Positions 45,811 to 64,000 of a stretch of DNA of 64,000 bases are shown in pieces (within the stretch, counting starts at the first letter, position 1; each line of letters begins with the position of its first letter). Origin of the DNA: Chelativorans multitrophicus (GTDB lineage Bacteria > Pseudomonadota > Alphaproteobacteria > Rhizobiales > Rhizobiaceae); assembly GCF_011317445.1 (NCBI RefSeq), contig NZ_JAAAPL010000001.1, positions 682,001-746,000 on the forward strand. The letters are read 5' to 3'. The notes under the pieces are model-generated. The model saw nothing but the letters and a program-made list of their open reading frames with translations. It did not search any database and had not been told where the DNA came from. The position numbers and the translations under genes are program-made.

Positions 45811-45815
45811 TCGCT

Positions 45816-45850
45816 GGGCGGCAAGCGGGGACCGTCCTCGCCTGCCGCCC
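45816..45850 (+). other. Long hairpin between binding-protein and permease genes
   Basis: GGGCGGCA pairs with TGCCGCCC, and the inner GCGGGGA pairs with TCCTCGC (one wobble), leaving a three-base loop. It lies six bases after the binding-protein stop. Hairpins in this position usually protect the upstream mRNA so that the binding protein is made in excess over the membrane parts. Confidence 0.6.
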
Positions 45851-45873
45851 GAAAATGAGGATGGTTTAGGCCC

Positions 45874-47589: not shown

Positions 47590-47608
47590 AGAACGGTTCC
47601 GTGTATCC

Positions 47609-48682
47609 ATGACAGCTATTGCGCTAGCGAAAATCGAGAAAAGATTCGGCGGCCAGAACGGCATCCTCGTGCTCGATGGGCTCGACCTTACGATCGCGGA
47701 AGGCGAGTCCTATGTGCTGCTCGGCCAGTCCGGCTGCGGCAAGACGACGACGCTGCGCATGATTGCGGGGCTGGAGGAGCCCACCGGCGGCGAAATGACT
47801 CTGAATGGCAGCCCGGTCTATTCTCGCGCGAACCGGATATGGGTCGCTCCCGAGCGGCGTCCCATCGGCATGGTGTTCCAGTCCTACGCCCTCTGGCCCA
47901 CCATGACGGTCATGCAGAACGTCCGGTTCACCCTCGAACGCGGGCGCACACGGCTTTCACGCGCAGAGGCCATGGCGCGCACCCGGGAGGTGCTCGACAT
48001 GATGCAGATCGGCCATCTGGCCGATCGTCGCATAACCCAGCTTTCGGGCGGACAGCAACAGCGCGTGGCCCTGGCGCGCGCCGTGGCCCAGCAGCCCCGG
48101 ATTCTGCTGATGGACGAACCGCTCTCCAATCTTGATCCGCAGTTGCGTTCCGACGTGCGCGGCGAAATCCGCAAGGTCTGCAAGAGCCTGGGAACCACAG
48201 CGGTGATCGTCACCCATGACCGCGACGACGCGCTGGGGCTGGCCGATCGCGTGGGGGTGATGGACAGGGGCAAAATCCTGCAGCAGGCCGCCCCCTCGGA
48301 GGTAATGAACGATCCCAGCTCGCTGTTCATCGCTCGTCTGTTCGGGGAAATGAACGCCCTCGATGGGCATGTCGCGTCCTTCGCGGACGGGAATGCGGTG
48401 GTCGCGGTGGGGAGCCGGCCATTCCCGGTAAAGCGGCACGCATGGATGGAACTGGGCCAGAAGGTGGTGCTCGGCGCACGCCCATCGAGCCAGTTCCTCG
48501 CGCAGGATGGCATCGCCGGCATCATCGTGGAAAGCCATCTCGAAGGTCAGATGCACCGCAACAAGGTCGATATCGGAGAGGGCGTGATGACCATATATCA
48601 CGAGGGAGCCGCCCTGCCGGTCGGCGAGCGCGTGCATGTGGCCACGCGGCCGGAGGCTTGGATGGCATTTCCGGCCCGTTGA
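47609..48682 (+). CDS. ABC transporter ATP-binding protein (FbpC/PotA type)
   Basis: The 357-residue ATPase of the importer: Walker A GQSGCGKTT, Q-loop, signature LSGGQQQRVALARA and Walker B ILLMDEPLSNLD, then the switch histidine (VTHDRDDALGLAD). A C-terminal TOBE-type domain (about 280-350) follows. It lies 19 bases downstream of the permease and ends the operon. Confidence 0.92.
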   Translation: MTAIALAKIEKRFGGQNGILVLDGLDLTIAEGESYVLLGQSGCGKTTTLRMIAGLEEPTGGEMTLNGSPVYSRANRIWVAPERRPIGMVFQSYALWPTMTVMQNVRFTLERGRTRLSRAEAMARTREVLDMMQIGHLADRRITQLSGGQQQRVALARAVAQQPRILLMDEPLSNLDPQLRSDVRGEIRKVCKSLGTTAVIVTHDRDDALGLADRVGVMDRGKILQQAAPSEVMNDPSSLFIARLFGEMNALDGHVASFADGNAVVAVGSRPFPVKRHAWMELGQKVVLGARPSSQFLAQDGIAGIIVESHLEGQMHRNKVDIGEGVMTIYHEGAALPVGERVHVATRPEAWMAFPAR

Positions 48683-48871: not shown

Positions 48872-50371
48872 TCAGGCGCCTGCTTCGGGCCAGCGGGCCC
48901 AGGGATGGGGCTTGCCGGTCAAGTCCACATAGACGGATTTCTGGGCCATATAGGCGCGGATGCCCTCCCTGCCCTTCTCGCGGTCCATTCCGGAATCCTT
49001 TTCGCCCCCGAAGGGCGTGGAGATGGAGAACTGCTTGTAGGTGTTTATCCAGACCGTGCCGGTGGTGATGGCGCGGGCGGTGCGCCATGCCTTGGGAAAA
49101 TCGCGGGTCCAGATCCCGCATGCCAAGCCATAGTCGTTGGCGTTGGATTGGGCGATGACGTCGGCTTCGTCGTCGAAGGGTAGGACGCAGAGAACGGGGC
49201 CGAACACCTCTTCGCGGCAGATCGGATCGTCGTTTTCAAGCCCGGCGAGGATGGTGGGCAGGTAATAGGCGCCCCTGTCGTAATCCGCGCCCGTGGGAAT
49301 CGCGGCGCCACACAAGACCTCCGCGCCCGCTTCGACGGCGGCTGCGACCTGGGCGGCAACAGCGTCGCGATGATCGAAATGGACCAATGGCGCGACCTGG
49401 GTGCGCTCATCGAAGGGATCGCCCACGACGAGCTTCTTCGTGGCCGCGACGAGGCGGTCCACGAAGCTTTCATATATGGACCGCTCGACGAAGAGGCGCG
49501 AGCCAGCGATGCAGCTCTGCCCGCTGGAGGAGAAGACGCCGAACAGGATGCCAGCGATGGCGAGGTCGATATCGGCGTCGGCAAAGACGATCGTGGGAGA
49601 CTTGCCGCCCAATTCCAGCGAGATGGGCATCAGTTTTTCGGCGGCCTGGCGGGCCAGCATACGGCCCGTCGCGGTGCCGCCGGTGAAGCTCACGCGCGAG
49701 ATGGCCGGATGCTCAACCAGAAGATTGCCGATCTCCCGCCCTGCGCCAGGCAGGACGGAAAACAGGCCTTGGGGCAAGCCGGCCGCCTCGACGATGCGGG
49801 CGAGCTCGAGCGAAACCAGAGGAGACCATGAAGCGGGCTTGAGCAGCACCGCGTTGCCTGCGGCCAGCGCGGGGGCGACCTTCTGGGCGTCCGAAGCGAT
49901 GGGAGAATTCCAGGGCGTGATGGCGGAGACCAGCCCAAGGGGCTCGTGCACCGACATGGACAGATAATCGCCGCGCGGCGCGGTGAGCGTATCGTCGAGG
50001 CTTTCCAGCGCGCCGGCAAAATAACGGAACGTGCCGGCGGCGGATGCGACCAGCGCGGTGGTCTCGCGCAGCGTCTTTCCGGTGTCGCGGGTCTGGATAA
50101 AGGCGATGCGGGCGGCGTTGGTTTCGATGCCATCGGCGATGCGATGGAGAAAGCGCGCCCGCTCATGGGGCTTGAGATTGCGCCAGGCCGGATCGGACTG
50201 GGCCTTCAGCGCCCGCTCGATGGCGCGTTCGCCATCGGCGCGGCTGGCACCCTTGATGACGCGGTTGACCGATCCGTCGCCCGAAAAGATCGAGACGATC
50301 TCCGCGCCTGAGCCTTCTTCCCAGCGCCCGCCGATATAGAGCTTCGAAGAGGGCAGTTCGAAACGGTTCAT
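48872..50371 (-). CDS. Aldehyde dehydrogenase (NAD(P)-dependent)
   Basis: A class I/II-type aldehyde dehydrogenase (499 residues) with all active-site blocks: ITPWNSPIASDAQKVAPALA, SLELGGKSP (Glu), GQSCIAGSR (catalytic Cys) and EEVFGPVL. It resembles hydroxymuconic-semialdehyde and betaine-aldehyde dehydrogenases. It is the last gene of the minus-strand catabolic operon and overlaps the upstream gene by four bases (ATGA). In a meta-cleavage pathway it could oxidise the ring-fission semialdehyde; that role is inferred. Confidence 0.88.
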   Translation of the reverse strand: MNRFELPSSKLYIGGRWEEGSGAEIVSIFSGDGSVNRVIKGASRADGERAIERALKAQSDPAWRNLKPHERARFLHRIADGIETNAARIAFIQTRDTGKTLRETTALVASAAGTFRYFAGALESLDDTLTAPRGDYLSMSVHEPLGLVSAITPWNSPIASDAQKVAPALAAGNAVLLKPASWSPLVSLELARIVEAAGLPQGLFSVLPGAGREIGNLLVEHPAISRVSFTGGTATGRMLARQAAEKLMPISLELGGKSPTIVFADADIDLAIAGILFGVFSSSGQSCIAGSRLFVERSIYESFVDRLVAATKKLVVGDPFDERTQVAPLVHFDHRDAVAAQVAAAVEAGAEVLCGAAIPTGADYDRGAYYLPTILAGLENDDPICREEVFGPVLCVLPFDDEADVIAQSNANDYGLACGIWTRDFPKAWRTARAITTGTVWINTYKQFSISTPFGGEKDSGMDREKGREGIRAYMAQKSVYVDLTGKPHPWARWPEAGA

Positions 50372-51180
50372 ATGGCCTGCTCCCGGCATCGGTTGAAGAC
50401 TTCCCGCGCGATCGAATAAACGGTGGTCACCGAGGTTTTCGGATTATCCGGAGACGGCCTGCCCTCGATCTTCATCGTGAAGTCGGCGGCGGCCGAGCGC
50501 ACGCTGTATTCGTGCACATTGCCCTTGGCGGCGGGGTCTGCGATGAGCCTTACATCGGTCTTTTCGAACCCTAGGCCGGCCAGCGCGAGCGTTGCCGCAA
50601 CATTGGCATTCTTGGGGTATTGCGTTGCCGCCTCGCGCGCATTGCCTGAAAAGAAGACGGTTTCGGTTGCAAGCGTATCCAGATCATAAAGTGCCGCGGC
50701 CGGCGTGTCCTTCCACGCGTGCGGAGGCTTGCGGCCTGTATAGGTGACGGCCTCGATCCCGGACACTTTAAGGGCCGAGAGAATATCGATGCCGCCGATG
50801 GCGCCGGCGGGCAGGATGAAGCGGGAGGACCCGGCGCGCGCCGCCTGGATCACCGCCTCGTGCAGGCTCCGGTCGGCCAGCGAACCGATGGAAACGATAA
50901 TCGTTTCAATTCCTGCCTGGAGCACGGCCGTGGCGTGCTGGCGGACACCTTCATGGCCGGCACACTCGACAACCAGGTCAGGCGCGGCTTCGACCAGCGC
51001 TTGGGTCTCGCAGACGACGGTCCCCGGCCCTGCGAAGTCGCTGGCCAGCCGCACGCGGCTTTCATCCGCGAACCCGCGTGGGCAAACGACGGTCACCTGC
51101 GAGAGCGGAACGCTTTCGCGCGATAGTATCCCCATCAGCGTGCGAGCGATATTGCCGTAGCCGATCAGTCCCAGATGCAC
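50368..51180 (-). CDS. L-aspartate-dehydrogenase-like oxidoreductase (NadX family)
   Basis: A 270-residue protein with an N-terminal Rossmann site (GLIGYGNIARTL) and the aspartate-dehydrogenase family blocks VVECAGHEGVRQHATAVL, LPAGAIGGIDIL and NANVAATLALAGLGF. True members convert aspartate to iminoaspartate for NAD synthesis, but no nadA or nadC is near; in this operon it more likely reduces or oxidises an amino or imino intermediate of the pathway. It lies five bases after the ThDP enzyme gene. Confidence 0.85.
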   Translation of the reverse strand: MHLGLIGYGNIARTLMGILSRESVPLSQVTVVCPRGFADESRVRLASDFAGPGTVVCETQALVEAAPDLVVECAGHEGVRQHATAVLQAGIETIIVSIGSLADRSLHEAVIQAARAGSSRFILPAGAIGGIDILSALKVSGIEAVTYTGRKPPHAWKDTPAAALYDLDTLATETVFFSGNAREAATQYPKNANVAATLALAGLGFEKTDVRLIADPAAKGNVHEYSVRSAAADFTMKIEGRPSPDNPKTSVTTVYSIAREVFNRCREQAI

Positions 51181-51185
51181 GGCAG

Positions 51186-52859
51186 TCAGACCTTATTGCC
51201 CGCGGCGCCGGCCGGGGGGCCGGAAAAGCTCTCGGCGAAGGGGCCGATCGCCAACATGTCGATTTCGATGAGCTGCGGACCGTCTGCCGCCAGCGCCGCG
51301 TCGAGCGCGTCGGCGAAATCGGCGACCGCCGTAACCTTGCGGTGCGGCAAGCCGATGGAGGCGCAATGGGCGGCGAAGTTAGGCGTGCGAAGCGCGGAAT
51401 AGTGGTGCCGGCTATTATACTGGGCGTCCTGAATGTTGCGGATCACGCCATAGGCCTGGTCGTTCATGAGCACGTAGACGAGCGGTGCTCGCTCCTCGAC
51501 CGCTGTGATCATTTCTGCGATGCCGAGCTGGGCGCCCCCATCGCCCAGCAGCGTGATCGCCTTGGCCGACGGCGATGCGATGGCGGCGCCGATGCCCATG
51601 GCGATGCCCTGCCCGATGCCGCCGCCCAACGCATGGACGCCGTGGCGGGGCTCGGCGAACTTGACGTAGCGGTTGCCGAAGGTGGAGTTGGAGATAGTCA
51701 CATCGCGCACCCACGGGTGACGGCCCGGCGCCACGCGTTCGAGCAGCGCGTCGGCGAGGCTGCCATAAGGACCCATGGCGGCGCGCATCGTCCCCTCCCC
51801 CTGCGCGCGGGTACGGGCGACGTCGAAGACAAGATTGGGATCGACGGAAAGCTTTTGCGGCAGGCGATCGAGCAAGCGCTGGAGGGTATCGGCGGCATCG
51901 CCATGGACGAACAAATCCACCGGATAGTTGCGTCCGCCCTGCGAGGCGTCGGCGTCGATCTGGATGGTGGGCCGAGGCAGGCGCATGGTGTTGTTGAGCG
52001 TCTCGTTGCCCCGCAGCTTGGAGCCCACGACGATCATCAGGTCGATGGTCTTGTAGAGGGCTTGGGATTCGGGCGCCATGTTGAAGGCGCCCAGATTGGC
52101 GGGATTGTCCTCCGAAACCGTGGCGCGGCCATTGGTGGAGGTGACGAGGGCGAAGCCGCGCTCGACCAGTTCGCTCGCTTGCTTGCGGGCGCCGCGCGCG
52201 CCGCCCCCGAGCCAGAGCATGGGCCGCCGCGCCCCTGCAACGAGCCGGGCGATCTCCTCGATCGCGGCGTCGTTGGCGCGGGGGCTCTGCGGTTGCGGCG
52301 CAAAGACGCGCGTCGTGGGCAGCGCAGCCATGCGCTGGACGTCAACCGGAATTTCAAGGCTGACCGGCCCAGTGGGCGCGCTGATGGCCGCGGTGACGGC
52401 AGCGGTCAGCGTGCCGATGGCACTCTTTGCATCCCAGAGACGGTAATAGGCCTTGGAGATGCCCTTGAGCATGTCGGGCTGGCGCGGAACGTCGTGGATC
52501 GGCGCGCGGTCGCGGTCCATGAACTGGGTGTCGACGGTCGAGGTGATGTGCAGCAGAGACGTGCCCGCGGTCAGCGCCTCGACCTGGGCGCCCGCGGCAT
52601 TGCCCGCCGCCGTACCCGTCGAGGTCATCACGACGCCCAGCTTGCCCGATACGCGTGCATAGGCATCGGCCATGTTCATGGCGCCCGCCTCGCCGCGCGC
52701 CGGAATGAACCGGACCCGCCCCTGGCGGGCGATCGCGTCGAGGATCGGCATGTTGTGGATGGAGATGACGCCAAAAATCACCTCGACGCCGATATCGGCA
52801 AGATAGGCTGCAATGAAATCGCCGACGGTCTCGTGGCGTGTGATGGATTCGAGTTTCAT
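51186..52859 (-). CDS. Thiamine-diphosphate-dependent enzyme (acetolactate synthase-like)
   Basis: A 557-residue three-domain ThDP enzyme of the acetolactate synthase/benzoylformate decarboxylase superfamily. The catalytic glutamate is Glu57 in ARGEAGAMNMADAY and the ThDP-metal site is LLGDGGAQLGIAEM followed by NDQAYGVIRN. It could decarboxylate a 2-oxo acid or ligate two carbonyl units; sequence does not decide. The start is ATG 52859 with GGAAG upstream. It follows the SDR gene by 23 bases in the operon. Confidence 0.85.
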   Translation of the reverse strand: MKLESITRHETVGDFIAAYLADIGVEVIFGVISIHNMPILDAIARQGRVRFIPARGEAGAMNMADAYARVSGKLGVVMTSTGTAAGNAAGAQVEALTAGTSLLHITSTVDTQFMDRDRAPIHDVPRQPDMLKGISKAYYRLWDAKSAIGTLTAAVTAAISAPTGPVSLEIPVDVQRMAALPTTRVFAPQPQSPRANDAAIEEIARLVAGARRPMLWLGGGARGARKQASELVERGFALVTSTNGRATVSEDNPANLGAFNMAPESQALYKTIDLMIVVGSKLRGNETLNNTMRLPRPTIQIDADASQGGRNYPVDLFVHGDAADTLQRLLDRLPQKLSVDPNLVFDVARTRAQGEGTMRAAMGPYGSLADALLERVAPGRHPWVRDVTISNSTFGNRYVKFAEPRHGVHALGGGIGQGIAMGIGAAIASPSAKAITLLGDGGAQLGIAEMITAVEERAPLVYVLMNDQAYGVIRNIQDAQYNSRHHYSALRTPNFAAHCASIGLPHRKVTAVADFADALDAALAADGPQLIEIDMLAIGPFAESFSGPPAGAAGNKV

Positions 52860-52882
52860 ATCGGCTTCCAATGAACTGGATG

Positions 52883-53671
52883 TCAGATGTGCCGGGCGAG
52901 GCCGCCCGATACATCGAGTTGCGCGCCCGTGATGTAGCTGGCGGCGTGAGAGCCCAAGAACGCGATGGCGGCGGCGGCTTCGCTCGGATCACCCAGACGC
53001 CCGAGCGGAATGCCCTTGCCGCGGGCCAGATTGCCGTACCATTCCTCCCGGCTCATCGACTGGTCCTCGCGTTCGGCAAAGCGGCGGGCCCATTGGCCGG
53101 AGTCGACAAGGCCGAGCAGCAGGGAATTGACCCGAACGTCGGGCGCCAGCTCAAGACTGAGCGACTTGAGCAGGTTCTGCACGCCGGCCCGGGCCGAGGA
53201 GGTGCAGACCATGTGCGCCTCGGGCTGATAGGCGAGCAGCGAATTGACCGCGACAACGGCGCCCTTTGCCCGCTTGAGCATCGGCAGGAAAGCGCGGATG
53301 GGGTAAATCTGGCTGAAGAGCTTGAGCTCGTATTCGGCGCGCCAGTCGTCGTCACTTGTGTTCTCGAAGGTCGAGATGCGGCCCTGGCCGGCATTGTTGA
53401 CCAGCAGGTCGCAGCGGCCGAAGGCAGCCTCGACTTCGGCGGCGAAGGCGTGGACGGCATCTGAATCAAGCACCGAAAAGGCGCGAGAGAGCAAGCGATC
53501 CGGGCCGTGGTCACGCCCCAGGGCCGAAACCACGTCCTTGAGCCGCGCTTCCCCGCGCGCGCAAAGGGCGACCTTCGCCCCCTGCTCAAGCAGCAATTGA
53601 ACCGTCGCGAGACCGATGCCGGACGAGCCTCCGGTGACAACCGCGACCCGTCCCTCATAAGGCGGTTTCAT
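52883..53671 (-). CDS. SDR-family protein with degenerate catalytic tetrad
   Basis: A 262-residue Rossmann-fold SDR (VVTGGSSGIG, NNAGQG) with an intact nucleotide site, but the active site is changed: the YxxxK positions read TSSAR (Thr157 for Tyr, Arg161 for Lys), and the tetrad asparagine appears as Lys117; only the serine (Ser144) remains. It is thus unlikely to be a standard dehydrogenase. It overlaps the dioxygenase gene by four bases, so it is kept in step with the pathway. It ends in SGGLARHI. Confidence 0.85.
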   Translation of the reverse strand: MKPPYEGRVAVVTGGSSGIGLATVQLLLEQGAKVALCARGEARLKDVVSALGRDHGPDRLLSRAFSVLDSDAVHAFAAEVEAAFGRCDLLVNNAGQGRISTFENTSDDDWRAEYELKLFSQIYPIRAFLPMLKRAKGAVVAVNSLLAYQPEAHMVCTSSARAGVQNLLKSLSLELAPDVRVNSLLLGLVDSGQWARRFAEREDQSMSREEWYGNLARGKGIPLGRLGDPSEAAAAIAFLGSHAASYITGAQLDVSGGLARHI

Positions 53672-54588
53672 CGGTTGCTTCCTCTCAGCTCGGGGAAGCC
53701 GGGATCGGGACGGCCCTGCATGACGGCGCGCTGCGCGCTGGTCGGCGGCCCAGCCGTCATCCACTGGTCCATCTTTTCGGGGTCGTCGCGCGGCCAGACC
53801 TGCGCTTCATGTGTCTCCTCGTCGATCTGCTGGATTTCGGAGGTGAACTCGATGACGAAGCCCGAGGGCGAAACATAATAGGCGAAGGGATTGTCCCCCG
53901 GACCGTGACGGCCCGGCCCCCAGGTGGGGTGAATGCCTTTCTCCTTCATGCGGCCGATCGAGCGCATGAACTCGTTGATCGAGGGCAACTCGAACGCGAC
54001 GTGGTTGACCGAAGGGTAATGGCTGCGCACCAGCGCGATGGAATGGTGGTCGGTGGCGCAGCGCAGGAACACCATCTGGTCGGCCGAATAATCGGAGACC
54101 CGGAATCCGAGCACGTCCACATACCATTTCTCGACCCCGTCCATGTCGGCGCTGTTGAGCACCACATGGCTCACCTTTCGCGGGCGGGCCCATTCTTCCC
54201 GTGCCTCGACCGATTTCGCCTCGGTGCGGAAACGCAGGCGGCGCAAATCGGGATCGAGCATTTCGAAACCGTAGCCGCCCACGAAATCGTCGAACGCCGC
54301 GGGCTCGCCGAGCACCGTCGCGCCTCTAGCCACCACTTGCCTATAGAGCGCATCCATGGCAGCCCGGTCGGGCATCGAGAAATGCACGTATTCGATGCCG
54401 TAGACCGGGTCGTCCTTGAGGCCGTAGATGAAGGACTCGGTGCCGGTGCCGCGCAGATAGACGATACCGTCCTCCTCGTGGGCGACGGTCAACCCCCAAT
54501 TATTCTCGTAAAAGCCCCTGGTGGCGGTTATGCCCGGCGCGCGCATAACGATGCCGCGCAGGGCACCAACGCGGATGGGTTCACTCAT
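53668..54588 (-). CDS. Extradiol-type (type I, VOC fold) ring-cleavage dioxygenase
   Basis: A 306-residue two-module VOC protein with the full ferrous site of type I extradiol dioxygenases in the second module: His141 (KVSHVVLN), His196 (SVNHVAFE) and Glu247 (FVIEFTS). The catalytic histidine (His181 or His182 in ATDHHSIAL) and tyrosine (Tyr237/238 in FAYYVSPSG) are also present. It should cleave a catechol-like or dihydroxypyridine-like ring next to the diol. It overlaps the SDR and hydrolase genes by four bases each. Confidence 0.88.
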   Translation of the reverse strand: MSEPIRVGALRGIVMRAPGITATRGFYENNWGLTVAHEEDGIVYLRGTGTESFIYGLKDDPVYGIEYVHFSMPDRAAMDALYRQVVARGATVLGEPAAFDDFVGGYGFEMLDPDLRRLRFRTEAKSVEAREEWARPRKVSHVVLNSADMDGVEKWYVDVLGFRVSDYSADQMVFLRCATDHHSIALVRSHYPSVNHVAFELPSINEFMRSIGRMKEKGIHPTWGPGRHGPGDNPFAYYVSPSGFVIEFTSEIQQIDEETHEAQVWPRDDPEKMDQWMTAGPPTSAQRAVMQGRPDPGFPELRGSNR

Positions 54589-55433
54589 CGGACGTCTCCC
54601 AATTGTATCGTGCCTGCCAAAGGCAGAGCACTCCTCATCGTCGAAACGATGGTGGCAGCCAAGGCGGCGGGGGCCTGGCGGTGAATGGCGTGGCCGGCAT
54701 GGGGCACGAGAGCGTAGTCCCCGCGGACAGCTTCATCGAGCGCGTCAAAGGCGGCGCGGGACTGGTCCGGCGGCGTCACCACGTCCCCTGTGCCGACGAT
54801 GACCGAAGTACGGCTGCGGACCCGTCTGCAATCGGCGGCGAGATCGCCCGAGGCGAGCATTCGCACGGCCTGGCCATAACCGGGCATGGTGACCTTGGCC
54901 ATGTCCTGACGCACGGCGGCGACGAGGTCCGGATTGCGCTCCGGCGCATGGATCAGGCGCGGAGCCCTGGCCGCGGCGAACGCTTCGGCCCCATCGCGTT
55001 CAAGATCGTCGAGGCGCTGCGCGTCCTTTTCGGAAAGCGTGCCGCCGCGCGGGGTGGCGCGGCCCTGGGCGCAGGCGGCGAGCGTCAGACTGGCGACCCG
55101 TTCTGGATGACCGGCGGCGAAGGCCGCGCCCATGAGCGTGCCCAGCGAATGGCCAAGAATATGAACCCGCTTGAGCTCCAGGGCCTCGCAAAGCGAGAGC
55201 AGCGCCATGGCATAATCGGCGGCCAGCGGCCAATCGGCCGCAAGCGGCGCGCTTTCGCCGTAACCGGGAGCGTTCCAGCAGATGACGCGCAAGTCGGCGG
55301 GCAGATAGCCGATCAGACCGTCGAAGGTCGAGGCCGTGGACCCGATGCCGTGCAGGCACACGAGGACGTCGCCGCCGCCGGCGCGCTCCCGCCATTCTAT
55401 GCCGTTGGTGAGGGTCTGGCGCATAATCATCAT
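54585..55433 (-). CDS. Alpha/beta-hydrolase (meta-cleavage-product hydrolase-like)
   Basis: An alpha/beta-hydrolase of about 282 residues with oxyanion HGIG, nucleophile elbow LGHSLGTLMG, aspartate in GTGDVVTPPD and histidine in PHAGHAIHRQAP. The size and its pairing with an extradiol dioxygenase suggest hydrolysis of a ring-fission product or an amide or ester of it; N-formylmaleamate deformylases also share this fold. Start uncertain: ATG 55433 or 55424, with no clear ribosome site. Confidence 0.85.
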   Translation of the reverse strand: MMIMRQTLTNGIEWRERAGGGDVLVCLHGIGSTASTFDGLIGYLPADLRVICWNAPGYGESAPLAADWPLAADYAMALLSLCEALELKRVHILGHSLGTLMGAAFAAGHPERVASLTLAACAQGRATPRGGTLSEKDAQRLDDLERDGAEAFAAARAPRLIHAPERNPDLVAAVRQDMAKVTMPGYGQAVRMLASGDLAADCRRVRSRTSVIVGTGDVVTPPDQSRAAFDALDEAVRGDYALVPHAGHAIHRQAPAALAATIVSTMRSALPLAGTIQLGDVR

Positions 55434-55492
55434 GAAAAACAAGAGCCGTGTTCAAAGCGAGAGGGGCCTGCGGCCCCTCCCCCCGGCGGGTG

Positions 55493-56062
55493 TCAGCCCG
55501 CGGCCTTATTTCCAGCGGGGCGCGGGATCTTGGAAACCGGGTGGTCCTCCGGATAGGTCGGGGTGACCGGCTTGGGGTTGCCGATCATCACGCACATAAG
55601 GGCCTCTTCGATGCCCTCGTTGCGCAGCCCACGGTAAAGCCCTGGTGGGACCGAGATGAGATCGCGCTCGGTCAGGACGGTTTCGACAAGCTCGCCCTTG
55701 TGCTCGATGAAGAGACGGATCTTGTGCCCCTTGAGGATGAAGAAGACTTCCTCGGCATCGCGGTGGATGTGGAGCGGACCTTCGCAGCCGGCCGGCAGAA
55801 CCATGGTCGAGAAGGTGAAGTTTTCTGCCGGAACGACATTCTCATCGTCGCTCACGCCGGTGGCCCCGGTGCCGATATAGCGCATCTGCGCACGCCGATA
55901 GATCGGGTCGTAATCGGCCTGGAATTTCAACGCATCCCAATCGAGCGTGCGGGTCTCGTAGCGTGCGACGCGGCTTTCAATCCACTCGGAGAGAGACTTT
56001 CCCTCGGGGATCACCACGTCGTCCGGTTCGATCGATGGGAATTTTTTCGGCACGACAGACAT
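55493..56062 (-). CDS. Cupin-domain protein
   Basis: A 189-residue single-cupin protein, the first gene of the minus-strand catabolic operon. The metal motif is PLHIHRDAEEVFFILKG (two His and Glu), with a second half GLYRGLRNEG that lacks an obvious His. It could be a small dioxygenase, an isomerase or a sensor; sequence alone does not decide. The start is ATG 56062, preceded by GGAG six bases before it. It diverges from the IclR gene. Confidence 0.8.
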   Translation of the reverse strand: MSVVPKKFPSIEPDDVVIPEGKSLSEWIESRVARYETRTLDWDALKFQADYDPIYRRAQMRYIGTGATGVSDDENVVPAENFTFSTMVLPAGCEGPLHIHRDAEEVFFILKGHKIRLFIEHKGELVETVLTERDLISVPPGLYRGLRNEGIEEALMCVMIGNPKPVTPTYPEDHPVSKIPRPAGNKAAG

Positions 56063-56236
56063 CAAGAACTCCTGTGCTGATGGTTCGGAAAGACAATCGG
56101 ATGGGTACGGATGGCGCTCAGAAATGGACGCGACGAGCGAGCACGCGTGCGTACCGGGACGAGCCAGGCCGCTGATTTCGTTCGATCCTTCGCTAGGGTG
56201 ATCGATACCACTTTAGGAAACCGCTCTTTGACGCCA

Positions 56237-56275
56237 ACTGTTCAAATATAAACTCAATGTTTATAATTATGCATA
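56237..56275. promoter_or_regulatory. Conserved element upstream of iclR, copy 1
   Basis: Contains GTTCAAATATAAAC (56240-56253) and GTTTATAATTATGC (56259-56272), separated by five bases. Nearly the same 33 bases occur inverted at 57303-57335. It lies in the divergent gap between the cupin operon and iclR, so one bound protein could act on both. Candidate IclR-type operator. Confidence 0.7.
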
Positions 56276-56344
56276 AGCACCCTCGTGTCAAGGGCCGCAC
56301 ATTGCCCGCACTGGCGCTATGGACTAAGGGAAAGTACGAGACTT

Positions 56345-57175
56345 ATGGCTGGAGTTGCCCGCGTGGACGACGATACGATCGAGATCGATGATGAAACCTC
56401 CCAGGGCCCGTCCTATTCGGTGCCCCCGGTCCACCGCGCCTTCCGGCTTCTCAGGCATATCGCGGCGGGTGGACGCTGCCGCAACGCAGCGGCCACGGCG
56501 CGCGAATTGGGCATCAACAGGACGACGCTGATCCGCCTTCTTCATACGCTGGAAGCGGAAGGAATAATCGAATCGGATGATGATGGCGCGAGCTGGCAGC
56601 TTGGGGTTGGGATGATCTCCCTGGCCGCCGACGCGCTCAAGTCGCGCGATGTGACGAGGGTCGCCCAACCCATCATGGCAAGGCTTGTCAACGAACTGCA
56701 CCTGTCGATCCATCTGGGCGTGCTCGACGGGCGCGACGTGGTCTATCTGCTGCGCGAAACGCCCAATTCGCACCTGATCAGCAATATTCGCGAGGGTTCG
56801 CGCCTGCCCGCCCACGCCACGACGATCGGGCGCATCCTGCTTGCCTATATGCCGGAAAGACAGTTGCTGGATCTCTACAGGGACGCCGACCTGGAAGCCC
56901 ACACTCCCAAAACCTCGACGACCCTGACCCAGCTCATCGCTCAGATTGCCGAGGACCGCAAGCAGGGCATTGCCTGGAGCAAGGGCAATTTCGAGCCGGG
57001 AATCGGCTCCTGCGCAGCGGCCATTTTCGACCATCGATCCCGTCCCATCGCGGGCATCAACGTCACCGGCCCCGAAGAGCAATTCAGCGCCTATAGCAAC
57101 AACGCCCAGCGCATCGAGGGCGCCATCAAGGCGGCCGCGGCCGAGATTTCCAAGGGCCTCGGCTACCGGGGCTGA
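56345..57175 (+). CDS. IclR-family transcriptional regulator
   Basis: A 276-residue regulator with an N-terminal winged helix (RNAAATARELGINRTTLIRL, about 50-70) and a C-terminal IclR effector domain (SLAADALKSRDVTRVAQPI onward; LPAHATTIGRILLAY). IclR proteins commonly govern aromatic-acid catabolism. The start is ATG 56345 (MAGVARVD); the open frame extends 20 codons upstream. Divergent and downstream genes carry the shared element, so it probably regulates both operons. Confidence 0.88.
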   Translation: MAGVARVDDDTIEIDDETSQGPSYSVPPVHRAFRLLRHIAAGGRCRNAAATARELGINRTTLIRLLHTLEAEGIIESDDDGASWQLGVGMISLAADALKSRDVTRVAQPIMARLVNELHLSIHLGVLDGRDVVYLLRETPNSHLISNIREGSRLPAHATTIGRILLAYMPERQLLDLYRDADLEAHTPKTSTTLTQLIAQIAEDRKQGIAWSKGNFEPGIGSCAAAIFDHRSRPIAGINVTGPEEQFSAYSNNAQRIEGAIKAAAAEISKGLGYRG

Positions 57176-57283
57176 GCCATAAAGGCCCCGCGCGCAACCA
57201 ACGCAGCAACAATATCTCCCGACACCCCCGGCGGTGGTGCCGACAGCTCTGGCGTGCGGACAAAAGCAACGCGCAGGGCCAGC

Positions 57284-57311
57284 TTGACACTAACCCATCG
57301 ATGCGTAATTA
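57284..57311 (+). promoter_or_regulatory. Sigma-70-type promoter of the second catabolic operon
   Basis: TTGACA (57284-57289) and TAATTA (57306-57311) are 16 bases apart, ahead of the small-protein start at 57354. The -10 hexamer lies inside the conserved element, so binding there would block or reposition RNA polymerase. Confidence 0.6.
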
Positions 57312-57335
57312 TGAACACTGCGTTTATATTTGAAC
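57303..57335. promoter_or_regulatory. Conserved element upstream of the second operon, copy 2 (inverted)
   Basis: GCGTAATTATGAAC (57303-57316), five bases, then GTTTATATTTGAAC (57322-57335): the reverse complement of copy 1 with few changes and the same half-site spacing. The first 14-base half of copy 1 is identical here. Confidence 0.7.
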
Positions 57336-57353
57336 ACTTCCTGAGGGGAGCCG

Positions 57354-57653
57354 ATGGACGCTTTCAAGGACCGATTATCAATCAAAGCCAAGGACACCAC
57401 GCGGGCGGAACTGGCGCACCGGTCCTTGGGGCGCGAACGCTCGGAAGCCGAGCGGGCGCTGACCTCAGCGATGATAGACATCATCGCCACCGCTCAAGCC
57501 GGTTTCGCCCAGACTGCCGCGGAACTGTTCCGGCGGCGCATTGTGGCGCCGATTTCGCACCGGACCGGCTGGGACGAGGCTTTGCTGGCGCAGGAACTGA
57601 GCACACACGGCGAACTCGATCGGGCATATGCGGAAAATGGCTATGGCGCTTGA
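57354..57653 (+). CDS. Small recombinase-like helix-turn-helix protein (tentative)
   Basis: A 99-residue protein with a good AGGGGAG ribosome site. The segment GFAQTAAELFRRRIVAPISH and GWDEALLAQEL resemble the small recombinase-like HTH proteins that accompany aromatic catabolic clusters in some proteobacteria, by pattern only. Its function is unknown. Its 3' end overlaps the start of the ABC ATPase gene by 17 bases, so the two are translationally coupled. Confidence 0.6.
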   Translation: MDAFKDRLSIKAKDTTRAELAHRSLGRERSEAERALTSAMIDIIATAQAGFAQTAAELFRRRIVAPISHRTGWDEALLAQELSTHGELDRAYAENGYGA

Positions 57654-58419
57654 GTTTCGCGGGGTTGCCAAGCAGTTTGGAAACATAAATTCGGGCACGG
57701 AGGTCCTGACGGCGGTCAAGGACATCAATTTCGCGGTCGGCCGAGGAGAGTTCGTGTCGGTCGTTGGCCCATCAGGATGCGGCAAGAGCACGATCATGAG
57801 CATGACCGCCGGGCTTTATAAGCCCACCGAAGGCGAAGTCCTCGTGAGCGGGGAGACGGTGGTCGGCCCCAACTCGCATGTGGGTTTCATGTTGCAGAAG
57901 GACCTGCTGCTGCCCTGGCGGTCTATTATAAAGAACGTCGAGTTCGGTCTCGAAGCCCGCGGCGTTCCGGCCCGGCAGCGGCGCGAGCGCGCCATGGCGG
58001 AACTCGAGCGCTGCCACCTCAAGGGGTTCGAAAACCACTACCCCTACCAGCTTTCAGGCGGGATGCGCCAGCGCGCGGCGCTGGCCCGCACACTCGCCAT
58101 CGACCCCGACATCATCCTGCTCGACGAGCCGTTTTCGGCGCTCGACGCACAGACCAAGCTTTTGATTCAGAACAGCTTTGCCAAGACTATTCAGGATGCG
58201 GGCATTACGGCGCTGCTGATCACCCACGATCTGTCCGAAGCCGTCATCATGTCCGATCGCGTGCTGGTGCTCTCCGAGCGTCCGGGCACCATCATCCACG
58301 AGCTTGCCGTCGATATTCCCGACAGAGGACAGCCTCTGGCCCGGCGGCAGATGCCGCAGGTCCACGGCTATGCCGCGCAGATCTTCAATCTGCTCAAACT
58401 CAATGAGCGGGCTGCCTGA
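57637..58419 (+). CDS. ABC transporter ATP-binding protein (NitT/TauT type)
   Basis: A 260-residue ATPase of the SsuB/TauB group: Walker A GPSGCGKST, signature LSGGMRQRAALARTLA, Walker B IILLDEPFSALD and switch LITHDLSEAV. It forms an importer with the binding protein and permease that follow. ATG 57637 is used; ATGs at 57628 and 57643 are alternatives. Confidence 0.9.
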   Translation: MAMALEFRGVAKQFGNINSGTEVLTAVKDINFAVGRGEFVSVVGPSGCGKSTIMSMTAGLYKPTEGEVLVSGETVVGPNSHVGFMLQKDLLLPWRSIIKNVEFGLEARGVPARQRRERAMAELERCHLKGFENHYPYQLSGGMRQRAALARTLAIDPDIILLDEPFSALDAQTKLLIQNSFAKTIQDAGITALLITHDLSEAVIMSDRVLVLSERPGTIIHELAVDIPDRGQPLARRQMPQVHGYAAQIFNLLKLNERAA

Positions 58420-58454
58420 GGGGGCAGACGCAAAATCCAGAGGAAGGACCATCA

Positions 58455-59435
58455 ATGAACCGTGTCTCACTCTCGTTGCTGTTTGCCGGTGGTCTGGCGC
58501 TTTCGGCCAGCGCCGCCCATGCGCAGGAGAACCTGACCTATCTGTTCCCTGCTCCCGACTTCCTCCCCGCCTTCGCCCCATTCCAGCTCGCCTATCACAA
58601 AGGCTATTATGAAGAAGAGGGTCTGAACGTCGAATTCCGCGTCGGCCAGGGCGGCGCCGACGTCGCGACGCAGGTCGCCGTGGGCAATGTGGACATGGGC
58701 GGCGGCATGGGTGACACCGCGATGATCGTACGCCCGAACGGGCTCGAAGTGCGCGGGGTCGCGCTGCTGGGCGGCAGAGGGCTGACCCATATCGCCTGGC
58801 GCAACGACAGCGGCATCGAGAGCGTCGCCGATCTGGAAGGTCAGTCCATCGCCGTCACCACCTTCCAGGACACCGCCTATTATAATTTGCTTGCCGTGCT
58901 GGCCGGCGAAGGCATCGACCGTCCCGAAGCCGATATCCAGGCTTTGGGTTCGGGCGGGCTGATCCAGGCCATGATCGCCGGCAGCGTGCAGGCCATGTCG
59001 GGCGTCCCTGAATGGATCGTGAGCATTCAGGACGCAGGCGTCGATCTGACGGTGATGCCGGTCAGCGAACTGTTCCCTGCCCAGCCGCAGGCGATCATCG
59101 CATCCGACCAGTTCATCGCAGAGCATCCCGAAAGGGCGGCTGGTTTCGTGCGTGCGACGCTGCGCGCGATCGACGACATTGTCGCCGACCCGGCCCTGGC
59201 CGCGCAGGAATATGTCGGTTTCATCGATCAGCACGCCGAAAACGTCGATCAGATCGAGCGCATCCTGCGCTTCTATGTGGAAAGCGTTTACGTCGAGATG
59301 GATGGCCTGCCGCGCGGCGCCTTCAATGAAGGGCAGCTGCTGGAAATCCAGGATTTCTATCTGGCTAACGACATCATTACGTCAGCGGTGCCGATCCAAG
59401 ACGTCTATACCAACCAGTTCGTCGTCTCCGAATAG
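58455..59435 (+). CDS. ABC transporter substrate-binding protein (NMT1/SsuA-like)
   Basis: An exported binding protein of 326 residues with a signal peptide (SLSLLFAGGLALSASAAHA then QENL) and the NMT1/THI5 fold typical of NitT/TauT systems (PDFLPAFAPFQLAYHKGYYE, GQGGADVATQVAVGNVDMG). This class carries sulfonates, aromatic acids, hydroxymethylpyrimidine and similar compounds. Given the ring-hydroxylating and ring-cleaving genes around it, an aromatic or N-heterocyclic acid is a likely ligand, by inference. GAGGAAGGA precedes the ATG. Confidence 0.88.
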   Translation: MNRVSLSLLFAGGLALSASAAHAQENLTYLFPAPDFLPAFAPFQLAYHKGYYEEEGLNVEFRVGQGGADVATQVAVGNVDMGGGMGDTAMIVRPNGLEVRGVALLGGRGLTHIAWRNDSGIESVADLEGQSIAVTTFQDTAYYNLLAVLAGEGIDRPEADIQALGSGGLIQAMIAGSVQAMSGVPEWIVSIQDAGVDLTVMPVSELFPAQPQAIIASDQFIAEHPERAAGFVRATLRAIDDIVADPALAAQEYVGFIDQHAENVDQIERILRFYVESVYVEMDGLPRGAFNEGQLLEIQDFYLANDIITSAVPIQDVYTNQFVVSE

Positions 59436-59453
59436 AGACTTGGCTTCGTGGTC

Positions 59454-59480
59454 CGGCCGGCTCGTCCGGCCGCGCTTTTT
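59454..59480 (+). terminator. Terminator-like hairpin between binding-protein and permease genes
   Basis: CGGCCGG pairs with CCGGCCG around a five-base loop, then CGC and TTTTT. It has all features of a rho-independent terminator but sits inside the operon, so it may be an attenuator that keeps the permease and monooxygenase lower than the binding protein. Confidence 0.7.
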
Positions 59481-59525
59481 GTGGTGTATCGCACCTCTTC
59501 TCACACATGCCAATGGTCGTAAGAT

Positions 59526-60338
59526 ATGAGTACCACCACGGTGAACGCCCCCGCATCTCCCTCCCGCCCGGCCGTGCTCCAGCCTCATGTGCTGATCGGT
59601 CTGCTCATTCTGTCGGCCGTGCTGCTGATCTGGGAGTTCTTGCCGCCCGCCCTCGGCGTGCCCCGGTTCATCATCCCCACCATCAGCGATATGGCGGGCG
59701 AACTGGGGCGAATGTACCGGCGCGAAAATCTCATCCCCAATATCTTATCGACGGCACTTTATACGGTTCTGGGCTTTGCCATAGGCTGGATGCTCGGAGC
59801 GATCATTGGCTATCTGCTGGGCCTATCACGCTTTTGGGAGAAGGTGCTCTCTCCCTATATCCTGGCGCTACAGATCGCGCCGAAGGTCGCCTTCGCGCCG
59901 CTGTTCATCATGTGGTTCGGTTACAATGCGACACCCAAGCTGCTGGTGACCGTGCTGATCGTGTTCTTCCCCGTGCTGGTCAATGTGCTCGCGGCGATGA
60001 AGACGGTGGATCGCGACATGGTCAATCTCGCCAGGGCCTACAATCTCAGCCGCTGGCAGATTTTCCTCAAGGTGCAGTTTCCATCCACCCTCCCCAACCT
60101 TCTGGCGGGGCTGCGGATTTCCTCCACGCTCGCGGTGATCGGGGTCACGGTGGGCGAACTGGTGGGCGGCAACACGGGGCTGGGCTTCCTGATCGCCTAT
60201 GGCGGCGGGCAGGCTAATGCGGCGATGGTCTTTAATGCCATCATCCTGCTTACCATCATCGGGATCGCACTCTACAGCGTCCTGGCCTGGGCCGAGGAAC
60301 GGCTGCTGCACTACATCCCCAAATCCCACATTTCCTAA
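59526..60338 (+). CDS. ABC transporter permease (NitT/TauT type)
   Basis: A 270-residue permease with six hydrophobic helices and the EAA-type loop NLARAYNLSRWQIFLKVQFP around residues 165-185. It completes the importer. It starts 90 bases after the binding-protein gene, following the internal terminator-like hairpin. Confidence 0.9.
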   Translation: MSTTTVNAPASPSRPAVLQPHVLIGLLILSAVLLIWEFLPPALGVPRFIIPTISDMAGELGRMYRRENLIPNILSTALYTVLGFAIGWMLGAIIGYLLGLSRFWEKVLSPYILALQIAPKVAFAPLFIMWFGYNATPKLLVTVLIVFFPVLVNVLAAMKTVDRDMVNLARAYNLSRWQIFLKVQFPSTLPNLLAGLRISSTLAVIGVTVGELVGGNTGLGFLIAYGGGQANAAMVFNAIILLTIIGIALYSVLAWAEERLLHYIPKSHIS

Positions 60339-60375
60339 AATCCGGCATGCAGCCGACAGCACACAAGATTAAGAC

Positions 60376-61509
60376 ATGGATCGTTTCGAAATTGCCATTT
60401 GCGGCGGCGGAGTGGGCGGTTTGACCGCGGCGCTGGCGCTGACCAAAATCGGACATAGGGTGACGGTTTTCGAGCGCGCGGAAAAGTTCCTGCGCATCGG
60501 TGCCGACGTCAACCTCACGCCCAACGCCGTGAAGGCGCTGGACGGGCTGGGGATCGGCGAGCGCCTGCGCAAGACCGCCGCGCGCCCCGCCTACCGCATC
60601 AGCCGCACCTGGGACACCGGGGAAGAGACATCGCGCTTGCCCATGAGCGTGGCAGCCGAAGAAAAATATGGCGCACCCCAACTCACGATCCATCGCGGCG
60701 ACCTGCTGCAGGCGATGGAAGAGGCTATTGACCCCGCATGCATCCGGCTCGGCCATCAGGCGGAATCCGTCAATGTGGACGGCGCGCGGCCCGTCGTCAC
60801 CTTTGCGGACGGCAAGGCGGAGAGCTTCGATCTGGTGATCGGTGCCGACGGCATCCATTCGGCGGTGCGCACGAGCCTTTTCGGCGCCGACGCGCCCGAG
60901 TTCACGGGGCTGGTGTCCTACCGCTCGGTGATCGAGAGCAAGGATGTGGACGTGCCCAATCTCGATTGCTTCACCAAATGGTGGGGCCCGACGCCTGACA
61001 TGCAGATCGTCACCTTCCCCTTGCTTCGCGGAGAAGAGCTTTTCGTCTTCGCCACCACCTCGCAGCCCGAATGGACGGCCGAGAGCTGGACGATGCCTGG
61101 GGAGGTGGAAGAGTTGCGCGCCGTTTATGCCGATTTCCACCCCGAGGTCCAGAAGATCCTCGCTGCCTGCACCAGCGTTACCAAGTCGGCCCTCTATGTG
61201 CGCAAGCCGTTTGCGCAGTGGAGCCGTGGCGGAGCAACGATCCTCGGCGATGCCGCCCATCCGATGGTGCCGTTCATGGCGCAGGGAGCCTGCATGGCGA
61301 TCGAGGATGCCATCGTCCTCGCGCGCGTGCTCCAGGGCGCTGCGCTGGCCGAAATTCCGCTGCGCCTCAAGACCTATGAGGAGTTGCGCAAGCCCCGCAC
61401 CAGTCAGGTCCAGGAAGGCTCTCGGGCGAACAACTGGCTCAAGGGCCAGGGCAACGCTGACTGGGTCTATGGTTATGACGCCTGGAGGCTGGCCATACCG
61501 TCCTCTTGA
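60376..61509 (+). CDS. FAD-dependent aromatic monooxygenase, 6-hydroxynicotinate 3-monooxygenase-like
   Basis: A class A flavin hydroxylase (377 residues) with the FAD dinucleotide motif CGGGVGGL, the NAD(P)H motif DLVIGADGIHSAVR (Asp158) and the second FAD motif LGDAAHPM (Asp292). From memory it matches the NicC group in several blocks: ADGIHS, KWW, a HPxVQKIL-like stretch, LWSRG/QWSRG, MAQGACMAIEDA and WVYGYD near the end. These enzymes decarboxylate and hydroxylate a pyridine or benzoate carboxylic acid. It ends the operon; a terminator follows. Confidence 0.85.
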   Translation: MDRFEIAICGGGVGGLTAALALTKIGHRVTVFERAEKFLRIGADVNLTPNAVKALDGLGIGERLRKTAARPAYRISRTWDTGEETSRLPMSVAAEEKYGAPQLTIHRGDLLQAMEEAIDPACIRLGHQAESVNVDGARPVVTFADGKAESFDLVIGADGIHSAVRTSLFGADAPEFTGLVSYRSVIESKDVDVPNLDCFTKWWGPTPDMQIVTFPLLRGEELFVFATTSQPEWTAESWTMPGEVEELRAVYADFHPEVQKILAACTSVTKSALYVRKPFAQWSRGGATILGDAAHPMVPFMAQGACMAIEDAIVLARVLQGAALAEIPLRLKTYEELRKPRTSQVQEGSRANNWLKGQGNADWVYGYDAWRLAIPSS

Positions 61510-62076: not shown

Positions 62077-63087
62077 ATGGCAAAACTCGAGCTAACCGTC
62101 GCCACCTGGGACTATGACAGAGTGCGTCCGATCATGGATGGTCGTGTCAAAGTGGAAGGCTGCGAAATCAACTTCATCACCGTGCCGCCGGAGGAGTGCT
62201 TTCACAGGGCCTGGTATCATCAGGATTTCGATGTCACCGAGATCGGCCTTTCCGGCTATGTCATCGCCACATCGCGCGGCGACGGCCAGGTGGGGGGGCT
62301 CAGTCCTTATGTGGGCATCCCGGTATTCCTGTCGCGGTCCTTCCGCGCATCCGGCATCTACATCCGCACGGACCGCGGCATTGAGAAACCGGAGGATTTG
62401 AAGGGCAAGAAGATTGGCGTGCCGGAATATCAGATCACGGCCGCTGTCTGGTCGCGCGGTTTTCTATCCGACGAATATGGCGTGCAGGTCGAAGACATCA
62501 GCTGGTACCAGGGCGGCATGAGCGATGCTGGCCGCAAGGACAAGTGGCCGAACAATCTGCCCGAAGGCTTTCCGCTGCACTTCCTCGGCGAGGGGCAAAC
62601 CATCAACCAGATGCTCGAGGACGGAGAACTCGATGCCTTCATCGGTCCACGAACCCCGCGCAGCTATCGCGACGGCGAGACCCCGATCCGGCGCCTCTTC
62701 GAGGATTTCGAAACTGTCGAGAAGAACTACTATCGTAAGACTGGGATTTTTCCGATCATGCATCCGCTCGGATTGCGGCGTGAGATCTACGAAAAGCACC
62801 CCTGGCTCGCTCTCAACCTCTATCTCGCCTTTTCGGAGGCGAAGCGCATCAGCCAGCAGGAAATGCTGGAGACCGCCGCCCTCAAAATTGGCCATCCGTG
62901 GATCGTCAGCTCCACTTTGTCGGCGCAGGAGGTGATGGGCGAGGATATCTTCCCCTACGGTGTCGAGAAGAGCCGGCCCACGCTCGAAGCCGCGATCCGC
63001 TACTCGATGGAGCAGCACATGGCAGTGCGCCCGGTGACGATTGAAGAACTCTTCCCGGCAAACACTCTTATGGATCCGAAGACCTGA
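62077..63087 (+). CDS. 4,5-dihydroxyphthalate decarboxylase-like protein
   Basis: A 336-residue protein of the Pht5-like group, which shares its fold with ABC binding proteins but has no signal peptide and is cytoplasmic. Family blocks include EECFHRAWYHQDFDVTEIGL, GKKIGVPEYQITAAVWSRG, DAFIGPRTPRSY and FPIMHPLGLRREIYEKHPW. Named members decarboxylate dihydroxyphthalate; many relatives in aromatic gene clusters are uncharacterised. It is expressed from the promoter/operator at 61783-61815, once shared with the flavoprotein that is now a pseudogene. Confidence 0.82.
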   Translation: MAKLELTVATWDYDRVRPIMDGRVKVEGCEINFITVPPEECFHRAWYHQDFDVTEIGLSGYVIATSRGDGQVGGLSPYVGIPVFLSRSFRASGIYIRTDRGIEKPEDLKGKKIGVPEYQITAAVWSRGFLSDEYGVQVEDISWYQGGMSDAGRKDKWPNNLPEGFPLHFLGEGQTINQMLEDGELDAFIGPRTPRSYRDGETPIRRLFEDFETVEKNYYRKTGIFPIMHPLGLRREIYEKHPWLALNLYLAFSEAKRISQQEMLETAALKIGHPWIVSSTLSAQEVMGEDIFPYGVEKSRPTLEAAIRYSMEQHMAVRPVTIEELFPANTLMDPKT

Positions 63088-63941: not shown

Positions 63942-64000
63942 GTCAAAAGCCACGGGCTGGTGGAGGAACGGAAATCAGGGCGAACTGCCTCAGGAGATCG

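Follow-up and report, generated by a model that had tools for sequence, protein, structure and literature searches.

The breakdown of tryptophan by bacteria through kynurenate, the classical kynurenate or 'quinoline' pathway, rests on enzymology of about 1959-1963. In that route kynurenate is turned into a 7,8-dihydrodiol and then into 7,8-dihydroxykynurenate, whose 8,8a-cleavage gives 5-(3-carboxy-3-oxopropenyl)-4,6-dihydroxypicolinate; this is reduced at its C=C, decarboxylated to an aldehyde and then oxidised to 5-(2-carboxyethyl)-4,6-dihydroxypicolinate; going by titles, one older study reportedly dealt with the formation of 7,8-dihydroxykynurenate by bacteria and one with the synthesis of glutamate from kynurenate. 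Here we compare this and other described pathways with a gene cluster at positions 48872-61509 of a 64,000-nucleotide stretch of Chelativorans multitrophicus DNA (contig NZ_JAAAPL010000001.1, positions 682,001 to 746,000; hereafter the window), which we read as an extradiol cleavage pathway whose lower route is distinct and whose regulon can be defined. A preliminary description, made from the sequence alone, had called the cluster probably undescribed; in the searchable literature, whose coverage left out most subscription papers, we found no assigned function for it beyond its appearance in Acinetobacter expression tables, and no genes for kynurenate degradation.

Several known systems share part of the cluster's enzymology. 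The kynurenate pathway calls for the same types of enzyme, which form a diol, open it by extradiol cleavage, reduce a C=C bond, decarboxylate a 2-oxo acid and oxidise an aldehyde, but it employs a dioxygenase and a dihydrodiol dehydrogenase where the window encodes a flavin hydroxylase, and its published end products differ from those proposed below. The nicotinate (nic) pathway, with NicC, NicX, NicD, NicE and NicF, also acts on an N-heteroaromatic acid with a hydroxylase of the same superfamily and an alpha/beta hydrolase; it has NicX where the cluster has a vicinal oxygen chelate (VOC) dioxygenase, the NicC motif His is replaced here, and the regulon holds neither racemase nor amidase. In the hca/mhp phenylpropionate pathway of Escherichia coli, two entry routes, one through a Rieske oxygenase with its dehydrogenase and the other through a flavin hydroxylase, lead to a single extradiol dioxygenase and a hydrolase, much as in the cluster and its relatives, whereas the dioxygenase family and the downstream enzymes are others. 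Pseudomonas aeruginosa PA3505, which we take to be an L-aspartate dehydrogenase (AspDH), presumably adjoins genes for an aldehyde dehydrogenase (ALDH), a thiamin diphosphate (ThDP) enzyme, a short-chain dehydrogenase/reductase (SDR), an IclR regulator and a hydrolase in PAO1. Finally, the riboflavin/lumichrome (lum) pathway likewise applies Rieske, extradiol and ThDP decarboxylase steps to an N-heterocycle, but the available part of its description lists a cytochrome P450, pyrimidine hydrolases and a two-part ThDP enzyme and does not mention an AspDH (PMC12752717); with this other gene set, it was rejected as the identity of the cluster.

Conserved core and shared operator

A scan of species genomes with an alignment of the window's dioxygenase gave 92 relatives, the best 80 of which were kept as 79 loci and joined by four plasmid loci; the resulting 83 loci are biased toward those with this dioxygenase, since it was the query. 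Six core genes (hydrolase, extradiol dioxygenase, SDR, ThDP enzyme, AspDH and ALDH) are all present in 71 of the 83, in the order hydrolase-VOC-SDR-ThDP-AspDH-ALDH in 66, and 11 of the 12 incomplete loci are stretches shorter than 14 kb, L079 being the twelfth. Because the six genes occur together so often and keep their order, their grouping, judged from this comparison, is not due to chance.

Beside this core, the loci differ in their front end. With identity thresholds of 55% for the hydroxylase and 40% for the Rieske oxygenase, 20 loci carry the hydroxylase only, 31 the Rieske oxygenase only, 30 both and two neither. The Rieske oxygenase, found with an SDR, therefore replaces or joins the flavin hydroxylase in 61 of the 83 relatives, so that the absence of a ferredoxin-linked oxygenase noted earlier is true of the window but not of its relatives. 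Twelve hydroxylase-only loci are minimal, consisting of the six core genes, a regulator and the flavin hydroxylase, with no Rieske oxygenase, and run compactly from hydrolase to hydroxylase, no gap exceeding 249 bases; genes related to those annotated as tripartite ATP-independent periplasmic (TRAP) transporter genes in a Vibrio plasmid locus (L022) occur at 10 of the 12. No cupin gene was found in these 12 minimal loci. The window's cupin shares 61-86% identity with five counterparts from alpha-, beta- and gammaproteobacteria, a strong conservation across distant lineages for a gene that was not found in the minimal clusters.

The window's two operons lie on opposite strands: the minus-strand one comprises seven genes (48872-56065) and the plus-strand one five (57354-61509), with the IclR gene (56285-57175) between them. 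A 39-nt stretch 5' of the IclR gene and another 5' of the transporter operon are 87% complementary to each other, and each holds one 19-bp palindrome (TATAAAC-N5-GTTTATA and TATGAAC-N5-GTTTATA). Shuffled windows contain a mean of 0.05 matches at two mismatches or fewer; across the whole 4.82-Mb genome (15 contigs), TATRAACN5GTTYATA at one mismatch or fewer occurs only at these two sites, and the reversed control pattern at 0 sites. Furthermore, the core TRAACN5GTTYA recurs at 77 sites in 50 of the 83 related loci, whereas three Markov simulations of that 1.53 Mb of sequence gave 2, 1 and 1 sites. Of the 77, 64 sit close to cluster gene starts: 22 precede the HTH_62 gene in an operon that encodes the ABC transporter and the Rieske oxygenase, 23 are at the IclR or hydroxylase gene, and the others lie before the hydrolase operon (10), a binding protein gene (five), the cupin gene (three) and an ATPase gene (one). 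The remaining 13 (11 outside and two inside reference genes) have no adjacent cluster gene start and were not counted as operators; at least one of those 11 falls inside a putative TRAP dctP open reading frame (ORF; 18107-18121 within 17803-18771 of L080). The 79 sites obtained by counting those of the window as well have the consensus TGAACN5GTTCA, in loci with a GC content of 65%, and 33 of the 83 loci, some of them short stretches, have no exact core site. Because the palindrome is unique to the two promoter regions in this genome and conserved before orthologous operons elsewhere, the earlier suggestion that the two linked operons form one catabolic regulon is, at the level of sequence, well supported; control would presumably lie with the IclR protein, as the one that binds the operator.

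Beyond the 83 loci, the dioxygenase is rare in random samples, with hits in 13 of 385 genomes of the class (E 1e-40) and in 18 of 394 genomes of one family, presumably the Rhodobacteraceae (E 1e-90); the ThDP family NF005470 exceeds its cut-off in nine of 299 genomes of the phylum. In the lineage to which the window belongs, the dioxygenase is scattered (4/81 relatives, 2/16 in the genus), which suggests transfer. The cluster extends through alpha-, beta- and gammaproteobacteria and into Streptomyces, and sets of related genes whose dioxygenases are more distant (24-31% identity) but keep the same metal ligands occur in Caballeronia, Novosphingobium, Klebsiella and Acinetobacter records.

Catalytic residues of the cluster enzymes

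The preliminary description had listed an intact extradiol dioxygenase and an altered SDR, and both stand up to alignment. In the dioxygenase, the 2-His-1-Glu metal site (H141, H196 and E247) is invariant in three alignments of 5, 7 and 10 rows. Its structure model (mean pLDDT 75, pTM 0.77, with residues 252-306 poor) matches the PDB entry 3b59 first and then DHBD, AphC, C23O and HPCD, with E-values of 1e-20 to 1e-17. By residues and modelled fold, the gene at 53668-54588 encodes a type I (VOC) extradiol dioxygenase. The cluster SDR carries TxxxR at the place of the YxxxK motif in 6/6 and 7/7 copies (two alignments, the window's SDR in both), a replacement that spans alpha-, beta- and gammaproteobacteria; the second SDR, that of the Rieske operon, retains YxxxK. 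Since the classical motif is absent from the aligned copies, the cluster SDR (mean pLDDT of its model 76) is unlikely, on motif grounds, to be an ordinary alcohol dehydrogenase. The hydrolase keeps GHSLG, the Asp and the His in 6/6 aligned sequences. In the AspDH, a motif NVHEY aligns with NIHIV/NIHEI of solved AspDHs, the His of which we take to be catalytic; with a profile score above the cut-off as well as this His region, the product of 50368-51180 is predicted to be an L-aspartate dehydrogenase.

The flavin hydroxylase had been described as a NicC-like, decarboxylating enzyme, and this part of the preliminary description is not supported. Its orthologues in Nitratireductor and Caballeronia are 65% and 59% identical to it, and its nearest solved structure is 6-hydroxynicotinate 3-monooxygenase (289 bits); it shares only 38% identity with a NicC that adjoins NicX in Pantoea (L156), compared with 57-70% among cluster members. 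The positions presumed to serve catalysis or substrate binding in NicC are His47, Cys202, His211 and Tyr215. In the NicC motif GAGIHMGPN, the His is replaced by Asn in 51 of 51 aligned entries, a count in which at least two genes appear twice (window/L132 and L078/L122) and for which one NicC from a nic cluster served as reference. Opposite the later C, H, Y and Y of NicC stand F, Q, F and P, or other residues or a gap in a second alignment, and a Cys of the window's hydroxylase lies near, not at, the place of the NicC Cys. With the His replaced and the C, H, Y and Y unmatched, the enzyme is not classed as NicC, and decarboxylation by it is, on these residues, not supported.

Candidate substrates and proposed route

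An unusual set stands behind the extradiol dioxygenase, namely a ThDP enzyme, an ALDH and an AspDH. The uptake, ring hydroxylation and extradiol cleavage proposed earlier are borne out by enzyme family, and the extradiol dioxygenase, 2-oxo-acid decarboxylase and ALDH that kynurenate or xanthurenate breakdown would call for in one regulon are, by family, all here. A nitrogen-containing substrate, also proposed earlier, is plausible, the AspDH scoring above its NCBIfam equivalog cut-off. We infer the substrate, the order of reactions and the direction of each step as follows. The ABC transporter would import the aromatic acid, and the flavin hydroxylase would hydroxylate xanthurenate (8-hydroxykynurenate) at C7 to 7,8-dihydroxykynurenate; in relatives, the Rieske oxygenase and second SDR would reach the same compound from kynurenate through the 7,8-dihydrodiol. 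The VOC dioxygenase may then cleave C8-C8a to give 5-(3-carboxy-3-oxopropenyl)-4,6-dihydroxypicolinate, the side-chain C=C of which the cluster SDR would reduce. The ThDP enzyme, as a 2-oxo-acid decarboxylase, would remove CO2 to leave an aldehyde, and the ALDH would oxidise this to 5-(2-carboxyethyl)-4,6-dihydroxypicolinate. Finally, the hydrolase may open the pyridone to iminosuccinate and glutarate, and the AspDH would convert iminosuccinate to aspartate, for a carbon balance of 10 = 4 + 5 + 1. Both the entry from xanthurenate and the opening of the last ring are proposals of our own; the steps as far as the carboxyethyl picolinate follow the classical kynurenate pathway.

Several observations fit this route. 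The seven enzymes that accompany the regulator in the minimal clusters provide one enzyme for each proposed step. The occurrence of the hydroxylase alone (20 loci), the Rieske oxygenase alone (31) or both (30) beside the same core fits a single substrate that comes with or without the hydroxyl group. Furthermore, 4-pyridone-2-carboxylate contains the atoms of iminosuccinate, which fits an AspDH, and genes of the RidA (imine deaminase) type, found in nine of the 83 loci and in a Caballeronia locus (L153), fit an imine product. That xanthurenate is the substrate here and kynurenate that of the Rieske form, both passing through 7,8-dihydroxykynurenate to iminosuccinate, is the likeliest of the readings considered and seems to us as probable as its opposite. 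The broader proposal, that the cluster supplies the genes so far missing from the bacterial kynurenate/xanthurenate pathway, with one core, a Rieske entry for kynurenate or a flavin 7-hydroxylase entry for xanthurenate, a new use of AspDH and an SDR with a T/R site acting as C=C reductase, is offered tentatively and is somewhat more likely to fail than to hold in all its parts.

A number of results weigh against xanthurenate and kynurenate. We found no gene specific to kynurenine metabolism in the cluster and no match to tryptophan 2,3-dioxygenase (TDO) in the window's genome. In the one family sampled, TDO is present in 16 of 18 cluster carriers and 70 of 149 genomes (for TDO only, Fisher p=0.0003 for 16/18 versus 64/143, assuming that six of the 18 carriers are among the 149, a seventh, G597, being possible), but the control HgmA is enriched too (18/18 versus 98/149), and this co-occurrence was dropped as evidence. 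In one carrier (G568), TDO and kynureninase genes do lie 9-11 kb from the cluster, with other genes between. A CoA-transferase and an acyl-CoA dehydrogenase beside the cluster in L021 fail the NCBIfam glutarate models and were rejected as a link to glutarate; similarly, a molybdenum hydroxylase in a Caballeronia plasmid locus (L112) was rejected as a sign of a quinoline precursor, being nearest to 4-hydroxybenzoyl-CoA reductase (438 bits, versus 268 for quinoline 2-oxidoreductase). The classical product, glutamate, does not match the proposed aspartate and glutarate, the cupin has no step in the proposed route, and in one 20.9-kb stretch (L079) no AspDH was found. The rise of apparent Acinetobacter orthologues together with sulfur-acquisition genes (PMC12892962) is likewise unexplained by either compound.

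Other substrates would use the same enzymes differently. A single-ring pyridine carboxylate, such as picolinate, nicotinate, a hydroxy derivative or an N-methyl compound like homarine, could be converted by both front ends to a dihydroxypyridine, with the VOC enzyme cleaving the ring and the hydrolase acting as amidase or deformylase. The hydroxylase's nearest solved structure and the AspDH, which suggests nitrogen in the substrate, are in keeping with this, as are the marine names that many carriers bear and the presence of the set on a plasmid of shrimp-derived Vibrio nigripulchritudo, where the ThDP enzyme and hydroxylase genes are in pieces; such pyridine compounds are common in marine animals. 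We nonetheless regard a pyridine as unlikely, given the hydroxylase's departures from NicC, a ThDP decarboxylase and AspDH that have no clear role after dihydroxypyridine cleavage, and the absence of the NicX and maleamate amidase families, as the preliminary description had noted, among the 20 proteins scanned in 40.9-64 kb. Homarine and nicotinate themselves were set aside, the literature search having given no gene cluster for them and the NicC residues being absent. A benzenoid acid resembling salicylate, benzoate or aminobenzoate, degraded through a catechol and meta cleavage with the ThDP enzyme and AspDH serving a side chain or amino group, would agree with the likeness of the dioxygenase model and profile to catechol 2,3- and homoprotocatechuate dioxygenases and with the layout known from hca/mhp of E. 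coli, in which a flavin hydroxylase and a Rieske enzyme converge on one catechol. This seems decidedly improbable to us: the 12 minimal clusters, examined within their own bounds, leave no room between genes for the hydratase and aldolase of a meta pathway, and the AspDH and ThDP enzyme are left unexplained.

Some other two-ring or sulfur-containing aromatic acid (another quinoline, a chromone or an aromatic sulfonate), handled by the same kinds of enzyme, we also hold to be very unlikely. For the binding protein and the permease, sulfonate-type models give the top or second-highest scores, but these are far below the NCBIfam cut-offs, and no desulfonating enzyme is recognisable. The Acinetobacter baumannii response mentioned above, in which ALDH, AspDH and cupin genes rise with sulfur-acquisition genes on addition of vitamin B12 (PMC12892962), would point the same way, except that the locus tags were taken as orthologues by nearby locus numbers, not by sequence. 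Other reports may bear on the same cluster: A1S_0956-0958, for an AspDH, an ALDH and an acetolactate-synthase-like protein, are up about 2.2-2.4 on mucin, from which no substrate follows (PMC5757984), and a promoter-trap insertion in A1S_0947 may by its number lie near the Acinetobacter cluster (PMC4328036). A kynureninase described in PMC9162365 belongs to a different cluster and was discarded.

If kynurenate and xanthurenate are indeed consumed, the cluster would provide genes for enzyme steps orphaned since the 1960s, let genomes reveal a capacity to remove two bioactive metabolites of tryptophan in gut, soil and sea, and add new reactions for an SDR and for AspDH, with iminosuccinate drawn from a pyridone ring. 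Even with another substrate, this is a conserved catabolic system, also in Klebsiella and Acinetobacter records, without an assigned substrate in the searchable literature, and now that its regulon and operator and a minimal set of genes are defined, the question can be put to a direct test.

Gene layout, neighbours and related records

Pfam and NCBIfam scans place all genes of the earlier list where it had them and in the families it gave, and add one that it had missed, the HTH_62-type gene ('recombinase-like helix-turn-helix') at 57354-57653. Neighbouring minus-strand genes overlap or lie less than 70 bp apart.

Features of the catabolic cluster in the window and the evidence for each
Feature	Position	Strand	Evidence
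Aldehyde dehydrogenase (predicted)	48872-50389	-	PF00171 527 bits; NCBIfam scores shown below cut-offs; conserved-core member
Aspartate dehydrogenase (predicted)	50368-51180	-	NF009827 271.5 bits, cut-off 226; His-containing C-terminal motif as in solved AspDHs
ThDP enzyme, family NF005470 (PRK07064)	51186-52871	-	795.9 bits, cut-off 495
SDR, family NF005468, TxxxR replacing YxxxK	52883-53671 (listed ORF to 53764)	-	395 bits, cut-off 266; alignments
Type I (VOC) extradiol dioxygenase	53668-54588	-	H141/H196/E247 invariant; model compared with PDB
Alpha/beta hydrolase	54585-55424 (listed ORF to 55442)	-	GHSLG serine, Asp and His
Single-domain cupin, accessory	55493-56065	-	PF07883
Operator 1 (putative), TATAAAC-TCAAT-GTTTATA	56247-56265		Divergent promoter region
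IclR-family regulator, PcaR/PobR-like	56285-57175	+	TIGR02431 155 bits, below cut-off 284.75
Operator 2 (putative), TATGAAC-ACTGC-GTTTATA	57310-57328		Precedes transporter operon
HTH_62-type small protein, 99 aa	57354-57653	+	Translation; 50% identical to Nitratireductor L019 counterpart, which matches PF20552
ABC transporter ATPase	57628-58419	+	PF00005
ABC substrate-binding protein, NMT1/SsuA-like	58455-59435	+	PF09084; NCBIfam below cut-offs
ABC permease	59526-60338	+	PF00528
Single-component FAD hydroxylase	60376-61509	+	Profile scans; Nitratireductor L019 orthologue, 65% identity

The HTH_62-type gene stands before the transporter genes here and is part of the Rieske operon in relatives. 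The Rieske form of the cluster is the one present in the Acinetobacter baumannii (L126) and Klebsiella pneumoniae (L127) records. The shrimp-derived V. nigripulchritudo plasmid (L022, 10521-20090) carries instead the flavin monooxygenase (FMO) form, in which the annotation splits the ThDP gene in two; its hydroxylase also matches in pieces, and the cluster is probably decaying in that record. Plasmid pNK84 of Caballeronia sp. NK8 (L112, 8146-16593) holds a second, partial cluster with ferredoxin, HTH_62, Rieske, ThDP enzyme and VOC genes, adjoining the genes of the three-subunit molybdenum hydroxylase discussed above.

Downstream of the window's hydroxylase, a binding-protein-like gene (62077-63087) and one for a siderophore-interacting protein (63183-63953) lie outside the conserved set; the former has an NMT1 match barely below threshold and, among the related loci scanned, one match shown (L023, 40%). 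Past the ALDH end, the stretch 43374-48682 carries a gene for an M24 (creatinase-like) peptidase and an ABC transporter set, probably a separate system.

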